Below, one piece after another: positions 8,806-38,956 of a stretch of DNA of 40,573 nt. The notes beneath the pieces were generated by a model. It did not search any database and was not told the DNA's origin. It saw only the letters and a program-made list of their open reading frames with translations. Made by a program: the position numbers and the translations under genes. Source of the stretch: Acidobacteriota bacterium. GTDB taxonomy: Bacteria > Acidobacteriota > Vicinamibacteria > Vicinamibacterales > CAVVIG01. Position 1 is the stretch's first letter; each line of letters begins with the position of its first letter. Location of the stretch: NCBI GenBank assembly GCA_003222535.1, contig QHWJ01000368.1, positions 1-40,573 on the forward strand. Reading direction: 5' to 3'.

Positions 8806-8846
8806 TCCTTTGTGTCCTCTGTCCCCTCTGTGTCCTTTGTGCCCCG
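8806..8846. repeat. Nonamer repeat, TCCTYTGTG words
   Basis: Four consecutive 9-bp units (tcctttgtg, tcctctgtc, ccctctgtg, tcctttgtg) between the divergent -10 boxes of purE and the first peptidase gene. Related nonamers occur at 10246-10310 and 26150-26200. Confidence 0.7.
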
Positions 8847-8864: not shown

Positions 8865-10223
8865 ATGAAGCGCGCAGTTGTTTTCTTCCTCGTCGCCCTG
8901 GCGGCGCCGGCCGTCGCGCAGACGCCCGCCGGCTCGCCGTCCCCGCCAAGAATCGACGTGCCTTACACGCGCTTCACGCTGCCGAACGGGCTCGTGGTGA
9001 TCCTCCACGAGGATCACAGCATTCCGATGGTCAGCGTGAACATGTGGTACCACGTCGGCTCGGCGCGCGAGCTCCCGAAGCGCACCGGTTTCGCGCACCT
9101 CTTCGAGCACCTCATGTTCATGGGCTCGGGTCACGTGAAGCCGGGCGAGTTCGACCAGTGGCTCGAGGCGGCCGGGGGCGACAACAACGGGTCGACCGAG
9201 ACCGATCGCACGAACTACTGGATCAACGTGCCGGCGGGCTCGCTCGAGCTCGCGCTGTTCCTCGAGTCCGATCGCATGGGCTATCTGCTCGACTCGATGA
9301 CGCCGAAAACCGTCGACGCCCAGCGTGACGTCGTCAAGAACGAGCGGCGCCAGTCGGTCGAGAATCGGCCGTACGGCATCGCCGAGGTCGTCCTGGGCGA
9401 GCTGCTGTATCGGGACGGCCACCCGTACCACTGGCCGGTCATCGGCTACATGGAGGACCTCACGGCGGCGAGCTACGACGATGTGGTGGCGTTTTTCAAG
9501 AAGTACTACGCGCCGTCCAACGCGAGCCTGGTGGTGGCCGGCGATCTCCAGCCGGCGGAGGCGCGCCGGCTCATCGAGAAGTGGTTCGGCGACGTCAAGC
9601 CGGGCGCGACCCCGGAACCGGCGACGATTCCCGGCGCCGCGCTGACCGGCGTGCAGAAGAAGACGATCACCGATCGCGTGCAGCTGCCGCGGCTGTATCT
9701 CGCCTGGCTGACGCCGCGCCATTTCGAGCCGGGCGACGCCGCGCTGGACATGGTGGCGGACATCCTGGCCGGCGGCAAGAACTCGCGGCTGTACAAACGG
9801 CTCGTCTACGACATGCAGATCGCGCAGGACGTGAGCGCGTTCCAGGCGTCGGCGGCGCTGTCGTCGAGCTTTCAGATCATCGCCACGCCGCGGCCGGGAC
9901 ATACGGTCGCGGAGCTGCAGAAGGTGATCGACGAGGAGATTCAGAAGCTGCAGCGCGAGGCGCCGACGCGCCACGAGCTCGAACGATCGGTGAACCAGAT
10001 CGAAGCGTCGTTCTTCAACCGCATGGAGCGCGTCGGCGGTTTCGGCGGGAAGGCCGATCAGTTGAACGCGTACTTCACCTTTGCCGGCGATCCGGACTGG
10101 TTCAACGAAGATCTGTCGCGGTATCGCGCGCTGTCGGTGTCGGACGTCAACGCCGCGGCCGCGCAGTTTCTGCCGCTGGACAAGCGGGTGGAGCTCGTCG
10201 TCGAGCCGGAGAAGAAACCGTGA
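8865..10223 (+). CDS. Secreted M16 zinc peptidase, catalytic subunit
   Basis: 452 residues starting with a signal peptide (MKRAVVFFLVALAAPAVAQ). The inverted zinc motif HxxEH is at H78-L-F-E81-H82, with the downstream acidic stretch ENRPYGIAEVV providing the third ligand region. Residues ~190-380 contain the second M16 domain. The protein should act in the periplasm on peptides. Its stop overlaps the start of the next M16 gene as GTGA. In bacterial heterodimers of this family one subunit carries the zinc site and the other an R/Y pair, which is what this pair shows. Confidence 0.95.
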   Translation: MKRAVVFFLVALAAPAVAQTPAGSPSPPRIDVPYTRFTLPNGLVVILHEDHSIPMVSVNMWYHVGSARELPKRTGFAHLFEHLMFMGSGHVKPGEFDQWLEAAGGDNNGSTETDRTNYWINVPAGSLELALFLESDRMGYLLDSMTPKTVDAQRDVVKNERRQSVENRPYGIAEVVLGELLYRDGHPYHWPVIGYMEDLTAASYDDVVAFFKKYYAPSNASLVVAGDLQPAEARRLIEKWFGDVKPGATPEPATIPGAALTGVQKKTITDRVQLPRLYLAWLTPRHFEPGDAALDMVADILAGGKNSRLYKRLVYDMQIAQDVSAFQASAALSSSFQIIATPRPGHTVAELQKVIDEEIQKLQREAPTRHELERSVNQIEASFFNRMERVGGFGGKADQLNAYFTFAGDPDWFNEDLSRYRALSVSDVNAAAAQFLPLDKRVELVVEPEKKP

Positions 10224-11728
10224 CCCCATACCACAGCCGTCCGGGAACCGCGGAGCACGCGGAGATCGCAGAGAAACGCTTGCTCTGCGCACTCTGCGTC
10301 CTCTGCGGTTGCTTGTTGCTGATCGCGGCCGCGACACTCTCGGCCCAGCAGGCGCCCGACCGCACGCATCCGCCGCAGCCGGGTCCGCCGGCTCCGCTGG
10401 GGCCGCCGGCGATTCAGAAGCAACGGCTCTCCAACGGCCTGCCGGTGTGGATCGTCGAGATGCACGAAGTGCCGGTCGCGCAGATCAACCTCGTGGTGTT
10501 CAGCGGCACGGCCAACGATCCGCCCGGGAAGTTCGGCGTGGCGAGCCTGACGGCGGCGATGCTCGAGGAAGGCGCCGCGTCGCGCTCGGCGCTGGAGATC
10601 GCCGACGCCGTCGACTACCTCGGCGCCGACCTCGGCGCCACGACCAGCAGCGACGTGTCCTCGGTGCGGCTGCATGTGCCCGTCGCGCGGCTGTCCGACG
10701 CGCTGCCGATCATGGCCGACGTCGCGCTGCGGCCCGCGTTCCCGAGAGACGAGCTCGAGCGCCAGCGGCAGCAGCGCCTCACCAGCCTGCTGCAGGGGCG
10801 GGACGATCCGCCCACGATTTCATCGGCAGCCTTCTCACGGACTCTGTACGGCAAAGGGCATCGCTACGGCACGCCGCAGATGGGAACCGCCGAAACGATC
10901 AAGACGCTCACTCCGGACGACCTGCGCGCCTTCTACGCGTCCGCGTTCCGGCCGGAGAATGCGACGCTGCTCGCAGTCGGCGATTTCACGGCCGACAGGG
11001 TGATGCCGCTGTTCGAAAAGAGCTTCGGCGCGTGGAAAGCGTCGGGCGCCGCGGCGAGGGAAAAGCTGCCCGCCGTGGAACAGCCGTCCGCGCGCCAGAT
11101 CCATCTGATCGACAAACCGGGCGCGCCGCAGTCGCAGATCCGCATCGGGTGGATTGGCGTGCCGCGAAGCACTCCGGACTACTTCCCGCTCACGGTGATG
11201 AACACGATTCTCGGCGGATCGTTTTCGTCGCGCCTGAACACCAACCTGCGCGAGGTGCACGGCTACTCGTACGGCGCGAGCTCGACGTTCGACATGCGCG
11301 CGGATGCCGGTCCGTTCTTCGCGGCCGCCGGCGTGCAGACGGACAAGACGGCCGAGGCGCTGAAAGAATTCTTCAACGAGCTGACCGCGATCCTGAAGCC
11401 GGTGCCCGGCGACGAGCTCGCGCGCGCGAAGAACTACGTCGCCTTGCGCTATCCGAGCACCTTCGAGACCACCGGGGATATCTCGCGGCGCCTCGAGGAC
11501 GCGCTCGTCTATCACCTGCCGGACGATTACTTCGCGAGGTATGTGCGGAACATCCAGGCCGTCACCTCCGCCGATGTCCAGCGCGTCGCCCAGAAATACA
11601 TCCAGCCCGGCCGCTTCGCCGTCGTTGTGGTGGGCGACCGGAAGACGATTGAGTCCGGCATCCGCGCGCTCAATCTGGGTCCGATCAACGTGATGACGGT
11701 CGATGACGTGTTCGGGCCGAAGCCGTAA
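10220..11728 (+). CDS. Secreted M16 peptidase-like, non-catalytic subunit
   Basis: 502 residues from GTG 10220, which overlaps the previous stop. The HxxEH motif is absent: the matching region reads FGVASLTAAMLEEGA. The C-terminal half has REVHGYSYGASSTFD, the R/Y motif of non-catalytic partners. It should pair with the upstream subunit in the periplasm. The N-terminus is odd. Residues ~9-32 (GTAEHAEIAEKR then LLCALCVLCGCLLL) are encoded by a repeat hairpin at 10246-10310, which supplies both the charged and hydrophobic parts of the signal peptide before ATLSA|Q. A start within the repeat (TTG codons) cannot be excluded. Confidence 0.92.
   Translation: MTPYHSRPGTAEHAEIAEKRLLCALCVLCGCLLLIAAATLSAQQAPDRTHPPQPGPPAPLGPPAIQKQRLSNGLPVWIVEMHEVPVAQINLVVFSGTANDPPGKFGVASLTAAMLEEGAASRSALEIADAVDYLGADLGATTSSDVSSVRLHVPVARLSDALPIMADVALRPAFPRDELERQRQQRLTSLLQGRDDPPTISSAAFSRTLYGKGHRYGTPQMGTAETIKTLTPDDLRAFYASAFRPENATLLAVGDFTADRVMPLFEKSFGAWKASGAAAREKLPAVEQPSARQIHLIDKPGAPQSQIRIGWIGVPRSTPDYFPLTVMNTILGGSFSSRLNTNLREVHGYSYGASSTFDMRADAGPFFAAAGVQTDKTAEALKEFFNELTAILKPVPGDELARAKNYVALRYPSTFETTGDISRRLEDALVYHLPDDYFARYVRNIQAVTSADVQRVAQKYIQPGRFAVVVVGDRKTIESGIRALNLGPINVMTVDDVFGPKP
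10246..10310. repeat. Nonamer hairpin repeat inside a signal-peptide coding region
   Basis: The left arm (10246-10273) has GGAG/CAGAG words every nine bases and the right arm (10283-10310) has CTCTGCG repeated every nine bases; the arms are largely complementary. It lies wholly inside the second M16 gene. Confidence 0.75.
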
Positions 11729-11730
11729 AG

Positions 11731-11978
11731 AGGTCGGATAGGTCGCGTGGGTCGCGTGGGTCGGGCAAGTCGGGTCGGGTAGGTCGCGTGGGTCGCGTAG
11801 GTGGGTGGGGCCGGTTCGACACCGGAGCGCGAAGGCTTCAGCCGAGCGCCAGGTCAGGTAGGGCGCGTGGGTCGCGTAGGTGGGGTGGGGCCGGGTTCGA
11901 CACCGGAGCGCGAAGGCTTCAGCCGAGCGCCAGGTCGGGTAGGGCGAGTGGGTCGCGTAGGTGGGGTGGGGCCGGTTC
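11731..11978. repeat. Tandem repeat array, ~80-bp units with GGTCGCGTRGG words
   Basis: Fills most of the 301-bp gap between the M16 pair and the antitoxin gene. The left part is a run of ~10-bp words (ggtcgcgtgg, gtcgggcaag, gtcgggtagg). The word gtcgcgtag recurs at 11792, 11871 and 11952, giving units of 79-81 bp. Each full unit carries an identical 23-bp palindrome-bearing block centred on GAAGGCTTCAGCC (11826-11848 and 11907-11929). The same block occurs at 36344-36366. No gene is supported here. Confidence 0.85.
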
Positions 11979-12007
11979 GAAACAGTTTGGTGTGGGGATC
12001 GCGCGTC

Positions 12008-20530: not shown

Positions 20531-20635
20531 AAGGCCACGAAAGCACGAAAACCACGAAATACACGAAAACTGGATCTCCAGTTTCGCGTCTTTTCGTGTG
20601 TTTCGTGTGTTTCGTGTGTTTCGCGGTTGCTTTCC
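20531..20635. terminator. Long CACGAA/TTCGTG hairpin between convergent genes
   Basis: Left side cacgaaa words, right side a run of three 9-bp units cgtgtgttt. The centre is a perfect AAACTGGA-TC-TCCAGTTT stem (20567-20584). Placed between convergent genes, it may act as a bidirectional terminator; otherwise it is a dispersed repeat related to 19054-19120. The rest of the 167-bp gap holds nothing recognisable. Confidence 0.55.
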
Positions 20636-21624: not shown

Positions 21625-22953
21625 CTACCTTCCGAGACGGCCAACCAGGACGGCGCCAGCCACGACCAGCGCCGGCCAGATGCCATAGAACACGGCCGCA
21701 GCGCCTTTGGGCGGCACGGCGAGCGGATGCCCTCGGAAAATCGCGTCCTCGCTCTCCAGCGGCGGCTTGACGCCCGCGAGCGCGTAAATTGTTTCGAGGA
21801 CGCCTTCCGCGGTCGTCACCCGGCTCATCTCCCGGCGGCCGCCGAGCTCGTACCAGATTTCACCGTAGTGCGGCGCATTCTGCTCGAACAGACCGATCGA
21901 CGTCGCCGACACGTACTGGACCTGGACCTTCGGCAGGACACGCCGCAGCTTCGCGATCGCGCGGTGTTCGAGATCCGCACGTCGAGGATCCTCCGGGGCC
22001 AGGTGCGCCTCGATGCGCAACGGCGCTCGAATGCGCGCGAGCGCGACTTCGTCGGCCTCCGGGAACGAGTTGATGCGGCTCTCCGATGTGTCCCAGCTCG
22101 GCGTCGCAAACGCGCAGCTGAAGACGACGGCCGCGGTGAGCGCGCCCAGTGCAATCGACTCGTGAACGCGGCGCCGCACCGCGACGCCAAGCCGAAGCCA
22201 CACGGCCGCGAGCGCGAGGCCCGCCAGCACGAGCGTCAGCGCGATGAGCACGACATCGAGCCGGATGAGGCCATGCTGGAACCCGGCGATCATCGCCGGC
22301 GGCGTGTAGCCGGCGACGCGCTCCCAGACGCCGCCCTGCACCGCGGCGATGAAGTTGACGATCCACGTGCCGACGGTGACGCTGAGCGTCAGGATCGCGG
22401 CCGTCGAGGGATGCTCGGTGAGCGCGGCGGCGGCCGCCGCGAGCGCGATGGTGAGGCCCGCGTTGAGCAGATGGCCGAACGCCACGGCCGCGAGCTCCGG
22501 AGGGTAGATGCTGCCGCCATAGCTCTTCCAGAGCAGGACCGCGGCGGCCGGGGCCGTCGACGCCACGATCCAACCGCCCAACAGCACCAGCGCTTTCGCC
22601 CCGACGCGCGTGAAGGCCGACATCGGGTGCTGCAACTCGATCTTCAGCGCCCCGCTTTGTCGATCGCCGGACACGAGACGGATGCCGACAAACGGCAGCA
22701 GAAACACGGCGGCGACCTCGCAGGCGCTGAACGTCGGCGCCCAGACGCCGATGAGCGGAGAAAACGCCTCGCCAACGCCCGCGCTGGTGCCGTTGAGGCC
22801 GCTGGCCTCGGCGTAGGTGCGGACCGCGCTGATGAAGGTGACGCCAACGAGCGGACCCATGGCCAGGAGCATGACCCACCACGCACGCGAGGCGACGAGC
22901 TCGCGATACTCTTTCTTCAGCAACCACACGTAAGGTCTCACGGCGGCGCTCAT
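21625..22953 (-). CDS. ABC-2 type transporter permease
   Basis: 442 residues. It starts with a cytoplasmic helix typical of ABC-2 permeases (WLLKKEYRELVASRAWWVM). About six hydrophobic segments follow, with FVGIRLVSGDRQSGALKIEL between early helices, a pattern of export permeases of the GldF/NatB type. A soluble stretch of ~110 residues (~290-400) precedes a last C-terminal helix. The matching ATPase is encoded upstream on the same strand, 231 bp away, with the gap filled by hairpins. Start ATG 22953 lies within the stem of the first hairpin. The substrate is unknown. Confidence 0.82.
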   Translation of the reverse strand: MSAAVRPYVWLLKKEYRELVASRAWWVMLLAMGPLVGVTFISAVRTYAEASGLNGTSAGVGEAFSPLIGVWAPTFSACEVAAVFLLPFVGIRLVSGDRQSGALKIELQHPMSAFTRVGAKALVLLGGWIVASTAPAAAVLLWKSYGGSIYPPELAAVAFGHLLNAGLTIALAAAAAALTEHPSTAAILTLSVTVGTWIVNFIAAVQGGVWERVAGYTPPAMIAGFQHGLIRLDVVLIALTLVLAGLALAAVWLRLGVAVRRRVHESIALGALTAAVVFSCAFATPSWDTSESRINSFPEADEVALARIRAPLRIEAHLAPEDPRRADLEHRAIAKLRRVLPKVQVQYVSATSIGLFEQNAPHYGEIWYELGGRREMSRVTTAEGVLETIYALAGVKPPLESEDAIFRGHPLAVPPKGAAAVFYGIWPALVVAGAVLVGRLGR

Positions 22954-23106
22954 CCTTCGACGGGCTCAGGATGAGCGGTCATGGTTTGCCTGTCGAACCA
23001 TGGGCAGTGGTCTCACTTCGGCCGGTGGGCAGACAAATCCGCTCGTCCTGAGCTTGTCGAAGGACGAGCCGTGGGATGCTCGTGGTTCGACAGGCTCACC
23101 ACGAGC
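22948..23106. repeat. Four hairpins with conserved loop and variable stems
   Basis: Stems: 22948-22956/22968-22976 (GCTCATCCT), 22980-22986/22996-23002 (CATGGTT), 23041-23049/23061-23069 (GCTCGTCCT), 23078-23086/23098-23106 (GCTCGTGGT). All are fully complementary. Loops are TCGACGGGCTC, TGCCTGTCG, GAGCTTGTCGA and TCGACAGGCTC; they are one motif read on either strand. It fills the gap between permease and ATPase genes. Confidence 0.9.
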
Positions 23107-23184
23107 GTGGGAACCGATATCGGCGCGCAGCAAACTAGACTGCTACCGAACCATGCGTTCTCCGCGTTCTCCGCGGTTCCTGTC

Positions 23185-23941: not shown

Positions 23942-24272
23942 TCGTAGTCCCTGGTCCTTGGTTCTTCGTGCTTGGTCCGTCCCTGGTCCTTGGTCCGTAC
24001 TTGGTCCCAACCAGGTCCCTAGGTCCGTCCTTGTCCTTGGTCCCAGGTTCTTGGTCCGTCCCTGGTCCTTGGTCCGTCCTTGGTCCCAACCAGGTCCTAG
24101 GTCCGTCCTTGTCCTTGGTCCCAGGTTCTTGGTCCGTCCGATTGGACGGCCGGGGACCAAGGACCAAGGACCTCGGACCGGACCAAGGACCAGGAACCAA
24201 GGACCTCGGACCGGACCAAGGACCAGGAACCAAGGACGGACCAGGCACCAAGAACTAAGGACCAAGGACCAA
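23942..24272. repeat. ~330-bp GGTCC/GGACC low-complexity inverted repeat
   Basis: The left ~200 bp is made of TTGGTCC-type heptamers and the right ~120 bp of the complementary GGACCAA words, folding about 24145 into one very long imperfect hairpin. A subunit of about 80 bp is duplicated (starting ~24001 and ~24081), and a 33-bp subunit in the right arm is repeated (24171 and 24204). It occupies the whole gap between two minus-strand genes. No gene is supported. Confidence 0.9.
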
Positions 24273-24275
24273 GTC

Positions 24276-26090
24276 TTACCGCAGCCGTGCGATCATCGTG
24301 CCGCGGCCCTCGGTCGATTCGCTGAAGAACGTCTCCCAGGCAGCGCGTATGCGCTCGAGCTTGTTGAGATCGTCGGTCGTCTCACGGGCTTGCGCCACCA
24401 CGTAGATGAACGCCTGCCGGAACACCTTCTGCGCGCTCGCCGCGTCCGGGCGCCGCGTCCCGCTCGCGGCGACGATGTCCGTGATGCGAACGTCCTTTCG
24501 CGCCCCGCGAATCTCGACCCCGATTCTCGGCGCGTCTCCGGGGTTCTGCCCGGAGCTCACGCGCGTGACGAGGAACATCGGCGGCACGTCCGACTCGGCG
24601 CGCAGTCCCATCGCGTACTGGTCCAGCGCCGAATACCGGGAGACGGCGCCGACGGTCCGGAACACGCCGTTGCCCAGGTCCTCGATGTCGTTGCCCTCCA
24701 TGCTCGAGGCGTCGGAATCGAAGAAGAAGCTCCAGTGCGCATCGTCGCGTCCGAGCAGTTCCTTCGAGTTGATGGTCCCGTCCTTGAACTCGAGGAACGC
24801 GAGCCAGCGGTGGCCGCATTCCTGGCCCATCAGGCTGAGCGTGTTGTTCTCGCCGAGAAACCGCTGCCGCGGGTCGTCCGGGAAACGCGTCAGCACGTCC
24901 ATGTCCACCACGCTGCGCAGCCGGCCGCGGCTGCCGAAGTCCCGGCTCGAGTCGTAGATGTCGACGCCAATCCCGCTGACCTCATTCGCCACCGTGAACT
25001 CGAACGCGAACGTGCCCCGTCTGGTCGTCCTCGTGTTCGTGAAGATCACGAGCTGATCGAAATCGTCGCCGTGCGTTTCATAGAACTTCCGGCTCAGAGC
25101 CACGGAATCGAAATCCTGGCTGCTCGCGAAGCGCTCGCCGACCGCACCGCTGCCGCCGGGAATCGTGCCGGACGACACCGTGCTGACGTCCACCGGGCTG
25201 AAAATACCGGTCTCGCCCGGCGACAGGCCGACGACCGCAGCCGCAGGCGCGACGGTCGTGCCATACACGAAGTCGATGCTGCCGTCCGCCGCGAGACGGA
25301 GCTGAACGTTCACCCGATTCGCCGGAACGTCGAACTCCGGAACGTCGCACCACGTCAGCTGCAGGGCATCGCGGTCGACGAGCCGGAACACTCCGCCGGC
25401 GCGCGACGGATCGAGATCGTCGAACACCGGCGCGATGCGCGGCGGGCCGGTGAGAAAGCGCGCGACGTTCCGATCCGAGCTCGCGTGCTCTTCCTCACCG
25501 AAGGTGACGTTGCCATCGGAGTTGACGAACGCTTCAGAATAGCGGCCCGCGTAGAAGGGGAACGTGAACGGCAGCGCCACCCGCGCGCTGTCGTCGTCGC
25601 CGAGCGAAATCTTCTCGCCGACCGTGCTTTGAAACTGCCGGTCGGAGTGCCGCGCGTCGTACCCGCCGGACCCGTTGCGCGAGAAGGCCACCGCGACGGC
25701 CCGCAGGTCGAAGGGGTTGGGCGGCAGCACGAGATCGCCCTCGTCCCTCACGACGGCCACCTGGCCGATGTCCTCGGCCGACGCGGCCGGCGCGATTGAC
25801 GACAGCGCCGATCGACGTCTGGCCACGGCCGCCTGATGCTTCCACAGCTCTTCGTACGCGCGGCCGCGCCGCGTTCGTCGATCGTCTGTCGATGCCGGTT
25901 TCAGCGGCGCGGAAATCGAGGCCCGCGCCGCGGGTGCGAGCGGAATCGAGCAATTGCTGCTCGTTGCCTGCGGCGGTACGGTCGTCACGGGAGGCTGGGT
26001 GCCACCGGAGTTGCCGCCACACGCGGCCGTCAGCAGTATCGCGATGATCGCGGCGTGCGGCATCCTCCGCTCGCGAGCGGGAACCGACAT
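24276..26090 (-). CDS. Large secreted lipoprotein with nidogen-like region and degenerate HExxH motif
   Basis: 604 residues. A lipoprotein signal ends in LLTAAC with lipid-carrying C24. The region ~160-330 (FPFYAGRYSEAFVNSDGNV, APVFDDLDPSRAGGVF, VNVQLRLAADGSIDFVYG) resembles the extracellular nidogen-type domain. Farther on, Q423-E-C-G-H427-RW aligns with the zinc motif HExxH but lacks the first histidine, so peptidase activity is doubtful. ATG 26090 is chosen: a perfect TATAAT lies 7 nt upstream. An in-frame start at 26285 would encode repeat-derived sequence and lies above the promoter; ATG 26063 is also possible. The function is not recognised. Confidence 0.78.
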   Translation of the reverse strand: MSVPARERRMPHAAIIAILLTAACGGNSGGTQPPVTTVPPQATSSNCSIPLAPAARASISAPLKPASTDDRRTRRGRAYEELWKHQAAVARRRSALSSIAPAASAEDIGQVAVVRDEGDLVLPPNPFDLRAVAVAFSRNGSGGYDARHSDRQFQSTVGEKISLGDDDSARVALPFTFPFYAGRYSEAFVNSDGNVTFGEEEHASSDRNVARFLTGPPRIAPVFDDLDPSRAGGVFRLVDRDALQLTWCDVPEFDVPANRVNVQLRLAADGSIDFVYGTTVAPAAAVVGLSPGETGIFSPVDVSTVSSGTIPGGSGAVGERFASSQDFDSVALSRKFYETHGDDFDQLVIFTNTRTTRRGTFAFEFTVANEVSGIGVDIYDSSRDFGSRGRLRSVVDMDVLTRFPDDPRQRFLGENNTLSLMGQECGHRWLAFLEFKDGTINSKELLGRDDAHWSFFFDSDASSMEGNDIEDLGNGVFRTVGAVSRYSALDQYAMGLRAESDVPPMFLVTRVSSGQNPGDAPRIGVEIRGARKDVRITDIVAASGTRRPDAASAQKVFRQAFIYVVAQARETTDDLNKLERIRAAWETFFSESTEGRGTMIARLR

Positions 26091-38815: not shown

Positions 38816-38858
38816 TGTTCGGTGCCCCCGCGGAGGGTACGGAGAGAACGGTAAACCG

Positions 38859-38912
38859 CAGAGAAACGGAGGAACACTTTCTCTGTTGATCCTTCGTTGC
38901 TCCGTTTCTCTG
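38859..38912 (+). terminator. Hairpin repeat after the Wzt-like gene
   Basis: Perfect 13-bp arms CAGAGAAACGGAG (38859-38871) and CTCCGTTTCTCTG (38900-38912), flanked by further partly complementary words out to ~38940. It fills the 141-bp gap before the next glycosyltransferase. It could terminate transcription, though no T-run follows. Confidence 0.55.
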
Positions 38913-38956
38913 TGTTTTGCCGTTCCCTCTGTCATCTCCGTTATCAAAAGAGTCTT

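Follow-up and report, generated by a model that had tools for sequence, protein, structure and literature searches.

Known palindromic repeats within genes

Rickettsia palindromic elements (RPEs) are palindromes that lie in frame within genes (Ogata et al. 2000, reviewed in PMC2229807 and PMC10969869). As the relevant portions of these articles describe them, they are short palindromic repeats, distributed genome-wide and found in frame within conserved protein genes, and the hairpin described here shares these properties. However, RPEs are 105-150 bp long and, according to PMC3733652, carry CGTC at one end, whereas the element at the present locus is about 65 nt long, is built from tandem nonamers, and has no CGTC at its foot (one CGTC lies 8 nt outside the hairpin and one inside its right arm). 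The portions of PMC2229807 and PMC10969869 devoted to RPEs do not describe them as supplying the signal peptides of conserved exported proteins.

The Yersinia RU-2 (YPAL) MITE forms residues 1-30 of YPO1552 together with part of its predicted signal peptide (Delihas 2007, PMC2759123; PMC2229807). The resemblance lies in a small, apparently mobile repeat that contributes to the predicted signal peptide of a putatively exported protein. However, RU-2 is 168 bp long, and the protein concerned, YPO1552, is small and putatively new, whereas the cases described here concern conserved enzymes with hairpin-free orthologues and involve several genes, genomes, and repeat families. Regarding further MITE features, the inverted repeat is present in the window copy, no target-site duplication is evident in the aligned flanks, and no partner transposase was identified.

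The palindromes with GTAG and CGTC tags that are associated with RAYT transposases (REP and REPtron sequences; PMC3733652) are likewise small and intergenic, and occasionally occur in genes. In contrast to them, the present locus contains no GTAG between 10236 and 10320, and neither GTAG nor CGTC stands at the ends of the hairpin. Mobilization by a RAYT was sought and not supported: the only Y1_Tnp gene found in the genome (L262) has no nonamer hairpins in its flanks. The literature search returned no report of a CGCAGAGnn hairpin repeat in Acidobacteria. As far as the literature searched goes, the novelty lies in conserved proteins repeatedly using hairpins as putative signal peptides, a pattern for which hairpin-free orthologues serve as controls.

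The M16 peptidase gene pair

The window, which is the whole stretch of 40,573 nucleotides that was analyzed, belongs to a genome of 8.06 Mb in 450 contigs (G000), whose closest relatives among the genome contigs searched are MAGs named Acidobacteria, some of them 'gp6'. It contains two adjoining genes for an M16 peptidase (Table 1). According to the motif scan, subunit A carries the HXXEH zinc motif as HLFEH at residue 78, and it begins with an ordinary signal peptide, MKRAVVFFLVALAAPAVAQ. Subunit B lacks HXXEH and retains the R/Y motif REVHGYSY; its best PDB match is 3amj_B, a 'zinc peptidase inactive subunit'. The M16 fold, the missing HXXEH, the C-terminal R/Y motif, and the adjoining catalytic subunit mark B as an inactive subunit. 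The two-subunit peptidase of PDB 3AMJ is likewise encoded by adjacent genes, one with HXXEH and the other without it but with the R/Y motif. Compared with that pair, the leader is the sole notable difference here.

Table 1. Coordinates of the features discussed; positions refer to the window unless a contig is named.
Feature	Position	Strand	Basis or remark
M16 peptidase subunit A, catalytic	8865..10223	+	Pfam PF00675 + PF05193; motif scan
Shine-Dalgarno-like GGAGAAG	10208..10214	+	read directly from the sequence; candidate
M16 peptidase subunit B, inactive	10220..11728	+	Pfam; PDB best match; motifs; synteny of start
Predicted signal peptide MTPYHSRPGTAEHAEIAEKRLLCALCVLCGCLLLIAAATLSA, expected cleavage before QQAPDR	10220..10345	+	orthologue alignment, hydropathy; cleavage inferred
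Hairpin left arm AACCGCGGAGCACGCGGAGATCGCAGAGAAA, encoding GTAEHAEIAEK	10246..10276	+	inverted-repeat search; alignment to canonical element
Hairpin loop CGC, Arg codon	10277..10279	+	sequence; inverted-repeat search
Hairpin right arm TTGCTCTGCGCACTCTGCGTCCTCTGCGGTT, encoding LLCALCVLCG, first half of hydrophobic core	10280..10310	+	inverted-repeat search
Second half of core with cleavage region CLLLIAAATLSA; aligns with orthologues that lack the hairpin	10310..10345	+	orthologue alignment
Leader hairpin of HEAT-repeat protein (L238)	G000 C61:17357-17446	-	orthologues L251-L258

The GTG start of B overlaps the stop codon of A by four bases (GTGA) and lies 8 nt beyond the end of the GGAG of the candidate Shine-Dalgarno sequence. 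A four-base start/stop overlap occurs in 35 of 67 B orthologues (20 with ATGA and 15 with GTGA), and GTG 10220 was taken as the probable start because this overlap is conserved by synteny. The N-terminus then reads MTPYHSRP-GTAEHAEIAEKR-LLCALCVLCG-CLLLIAAATLSAQQ. Any start that gives a signal peptide of normal length retains the right arm in the hydrophobic core.

The hairpin and the predicted signal peptide

According to the first-pass annotation, the N-terminus of B is translated from a nonamer hairpin, one arm of which gives the charged part of an export signal and the other its hydrophobic core. The hairpin was found at exactly the coordinates proposed: it is a 65-nt inverted repeat with 31-nt arms (81% complementary) and a 3-nt loop, and it lies in frame between GTG 10220 and the mature part of the protein. 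The assignment of the arms needs correction. The left arm does supply charged residues, but these are mainly acidic (EHAEIAEK), so that the n-region has a net charge of 0 and is not basic, with KR directly before the core. The right arm does lie in the core, but forms only its first half.

The core comprises 22 uncharged residues, and its mean Kyte-Doolittle hydropathy of 2.71 over 19 residues is the highest of the orthologue set. The cleavage region has L-S-A before QQ at the same position as in the orthologues, with Ala at -1 and Leu at -3 as in several of them. Core length, hydropathy, and the small residue before QQ are those of a Sec type I signal peptide, while a net-neutral n-region is weak for a Sec signal. 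High hydrophobicity can offset a weak n-region in Sec targeting, and for this reason export and cleavage at LSA/QQ would be expected. A lipobox reading of the leader (LCG/C) was set aside because the hydrophobic stretch comes after the cysteine.

An ancestral state obtained by simple excision of the 65 nt was also considered. Excision shifts the frame and does not leave today's frame open, and a clean single insertion into today's open reading frame was therefore rejected.

The nonamer repeat family

The window hairpin is a canonical copy of a hairpin family built from the nonamer CGCAGAGnn. Three tandem nonamers, CGCAGAGnnCGCAGAGnnCGCAGAG, have 57 + 54 = 111 matches with at most two mismatches in the 8.06-Mb genome, compared with 0 for the reversed control. 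Aligned copies share an element of about 65 nt, AACCGC.GAGnnCGC.GAGnnCGCAGAGAAA-loop-TTTCTCTGCGnnCTCTGCGnnCTCTGCGGTT, which in full reads AACCGC.GAG nn CGC.GAG nn CGCAGAGAAA - loop - TTTCTCTGCG nn CTCTGCG nn CTCTGCGGTT. The window copy is such a 65-nt element, with a right arm that is largely the reverse complement of its left arm, and the intergenic copies L141 and L138 are its near twins. No Rfam match was obtained in the window.

The family had been described as otherwise located between genes, and this holds for the most part. In a survey of 69 genome stretches with a simple codon-score gene finder, about 10 of 87 arm clusters overlap predicted coding sequence, and the others are intergenic or upstream of the likely start. 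Among the in-gene copies are some that lie in internal loops or linkers, namely those in a membrane protein (L003), in a DNA polymerase III alpha-like protein (L022), and in a molybdenum hydroxylase fusion (L025). Three of those in the survey sample (window, L157, and L140) lie within putative signal peptides. The chance of at least 3 of 10 in-gene copies doing so is 0.001-0.012, a rough guide that assumes a signal-peptide coding fraction of 2-5%.

Further properties of the repeats were recorded in passing. The in-frame hairpins of L022 and L025, the latter in the linker of the fusion, are comparable to RPE insertions. In L005, L007, L016, L024, L147, and other loci, facing nonamer arms stand 150-270 bases apart, which suggests that, in addition to the simple 65-nt hairpin, there is a longer composite element bounded by nonamers. 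The CGCAGAG unit has no stop in any of the six frames, but 27 of 152 shuffled cores share this property; it is therefore not remarkable, and a special adaptation was rejected. The window itself contains a tandem arm of CACAGAG type, CCTCTGTGTCCTCTGTCC, directly upstream of the subunit A start (8807-8844). The B gene is followed immediately by an 81-bp tandem repeat of 2.6 copies at 94% (11773-11980). Intergenic hairpins of related repeat types occur at 20535-20623 and 38831-38940 (CACGAAA nonamers; 45-nt arms CGGAGGGTACGGAGAG...). Nested inverted repeats of CTCATCCTTCGACGGGCTCAGGATGAG type lie at 22948-23107, and a long inverted array of GGACCAA/TTGGTCC heptamers with periods of 19-79 bp lies between genes at 23947-24280.

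Orthologues with and without the repeat

Up to 70 B orthologues from the order were compared, in a set that consists of MAG data, represents the host genus by one genome, and contains no near-identical empty site. A class-wide search found no further genomes with the M16 B gene. The two genomes closest to the window B, G005 and G006 of the sister genus (82% identical, tree support 0.996), have leaders MKRSIVAQSFSAAMIVAMALGISVIAQQ and MRRSHVTPRVGAAMALVAALATGLVAQQ, which are ordinary signal peptides without the repeat. Most other B orthologues also have ordinary short signal peptides and no repeat. In the alignment, CLLLIAAATLSAQQ, which follows the hairpin in the window, matches the end of the G005 and G006 leaders. 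Since it corresponds to the end of hairpin-free leaders, the repeat appears to have replaced the start and the first half of an existing signal peptide. The hairpin thus seems to form only part of the predicted signal, since the cleavage site and the final ~10 residues of the core are apparently ancestral. This alignment of orthologues with and without the repeat, which the first-pass annotation had proposed as a check, lends support to its claim that the repeat entered the gene start and would now be read as part of an export signal. An orthologue sharing the window N-terminus with the hairpin gone was sought, and none was found among those examined; the N-terminus of G018 is similar, with its hairpin still there.

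Hairpins also occur at the same junction in other B genes. Full in-frame hairpins belonging to two repeat families were found in G018, G095, and G108. The G018 gene has two of them, one of CACGAAA type and one of CGCnnAG type, while the hairpins of G095 and G108 are of CACGAAG type, with PRRPRRSRR encoded by the left arm. Apparent single-arm remnants are present in G023, G091, and G110, and G022, G021, G014, and G001 have repeats in the A-B spacer before ATG (L034, L035, L041, and L047 among the orthologue loci). Neither G019, a congener of G018, nor G096, a congener of G095, has a hairpin in this gene. The hairpins of G000 and G018 are identical at 54 of 69 bases and share the frame and the right junction GGTTGCTT. 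As a single old insertion they would require two losses on the tree; the alternative is two gains. Among orthologues with the overlapping start, the four full-hairpin leaders are the longest (40, 67, 49, and 43 codons), compared with a median of 24 and a maximum of 39 for the others.

Hairpin leaders in other genes

Hairpins in the host genome also encode putative signal peptides of a cytochrome c, a VPS10/BNR protein, and a HEAT-repeat protein, genes which were picked for comparison because the host genome has a hairpin there and some of whose start codons are provisional. The cytochrome c starts MAVPPVHDDQRRTRRTRRARLFSASSAVSALFVVAAVTIEAQ, with 35-nt arms that are 89% complementary. Its orthologues in G018 (83%) and G019 (77%) have hairpins at the same place, and that of G009 has an apparent single arm. 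In the VPS10/BNR protein, EREARRARKVQLFLRALRALRS comes from the hairpin and stands before the core, whereas the closest orthologues have short leaders, e.g., MKRQTLVGPLLAIGLVAPFLAG. The HEAT-repeat protein starts with the hairpin-derived MWNAKPAEPAEPWFFCVLCALCVLLVVFARAQ. Its leaders in G005, G018, G021, and G022 also contain a hairpin, with three repeat types represented, and arm-like sequences are present in G006, G020, and G023. This leader is the clearest case of recurrent signal-peptide turnover. Hairpins are thus also used by orthologues of two of the three other host genes (cytochrome c and HEAT), and the pattern as a whole may be read as recurrent signal-peptide turnover by hairpin insertion.

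A separate observation concerns the cytochrome c hairpins of G000 and G019 (L157/L174 vs. L176). They differ by an apparent paired change, from AACTCGC to AACCCGC on the left and from GAGTT to GGGTT on the right, hinting at a pairing constraint or template switching.

Alternative explanations

The most probable explanation, held with considerable confidence, is the insertion of a hairpin at the start of the M16 B gene, where it would now form part of a predicted Sec signal peptide. The strength of the structure itself raises another possibility. The predicted RNA hairpin of the window copy is stable (-60.1 kcal/mol, z -2.67, 3 of 200 shuffles equally good), and the arms are still 79-89% complementary in several coding copies. 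Together with the mostly intergenic location of the element and the spacer repeats upstream of ATG, this is what would be expected if selection had acted on the hairpin as an RNA (or DNA) structure located between two co-transcribed genes, where it would adjust how much subunit B is made or how stable it is, and if translation of the hairpin were incidental. However, the hairpin is absent from most orthologues, and its distance from the start codon differs among genes and genomes. Where it has been lost or shortened, the coding arm and a signal-peptide-like N-terminus are kept (M16 B in G023, G091, and G110; cytochrome c in G009 and G018). Because the peptide features persist in these cases, the peptide is favored as the thing kept, and selection for the structure is quite unlikely. 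The probability that an inverted nonamer repeat encodes the N-terminus by coincidence is close to nil: signal peptides are of low complexity, but the match to the 65-nt consensus including both ends and the genomic count against the reversed control already refute this reading, and the repeat is absent in the sister genomes.

It is also necessary to consider whether the hairpin is translated and whether its product works. TTG codons at 10280, 10313, and 10316 could serve as downstream starts, leaving the repeat or its left half as an untranslated leader, similar to the orthologues in which a repeat precedes the start. This appears very unlikely, given the well-spaced GGAG and the conserved overlap at GTG 10220 and the absence of ATG and GTG codons from the segment that links the hairpin to the mature part. 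Moreover, TTG 10313 leaves just 11 residues ahead of the cleavage site, and TTG 10280 would still leave the core encoded by the right arm. The main functional alternative is that the 22-residue core, which has a hydropathy at transmembrane level and follows an n-region without net charge, could serve as an uncleaved membrane anchor. The insertion would then be a tolerated or mildly harmful accident, with such an anchor or with reduced export of subunit B in this lineage. It is an unlikely outcome, as the LSA/QQ cleavage region is kept as in the orthologues, the same solution recurs across other genomes and genes, and the remaining 1.4 kb form an open frame that shows coding-like codon use according to the gene finder and is 82% identical to the sister genomes.

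Proposed mechanism and implications

Under the insertion explanation, we infer that a copy of the short genome-wide nonamer hairpin, presumed to be mobile, landed at the start of the inactive-subunit gene of a periplasmic M16 pair. Translation, probably coupled from A, would start at GTG 10220 and run through the hairpin, whose repeat units are free of stops in that frame. The n-region GTAEHAEIAEKR would come from the left arm and the ten residues that open the core, LLCALCVLCG, from the right arm, followed by the ancestral remainder of the core with its cleavage site (CLLLIAAATLSA/QQ). The result would be a Sec signal peptide whose unusually long and hydrophobic core offsets the net-neutral n-region. 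Signal peptides tolerate large changes in length and sequence provided that the start stays charged or polar and that the hydrophobic core and the cleavage site are retained, and they can therefore absorb hairpin insertions. In this family, such events have recurred, involving several types of hairpin and different reading frames.

Signal peptides change rapidly in evolution, and the emergence of a new one is seldom observed. In the present case, comparing orthologues that have the repeat with those that lack it, for four genes and in several genomes, catches small, selfish-looking hairpins becoming seemingly working parts of conserved proteins and makes signal-peptide turnover by repeat insertion directly testable. 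The finding is also a warning for annotation, since in such genomes repeats shape start-codon calls as well as lipoprotein or membrane predictions. The chances are about even that this acidobacterial family regularly draws secretion signals from hairpin repeats. If so, the leaders of conserved exported proteins would have been remade time and again out of any hairpin that happened to land at the gene start, given the tendency of one arm to encode charged residues and of the other to encode hydrophobic ones, and certain of these leaders would then have persisted across genera.
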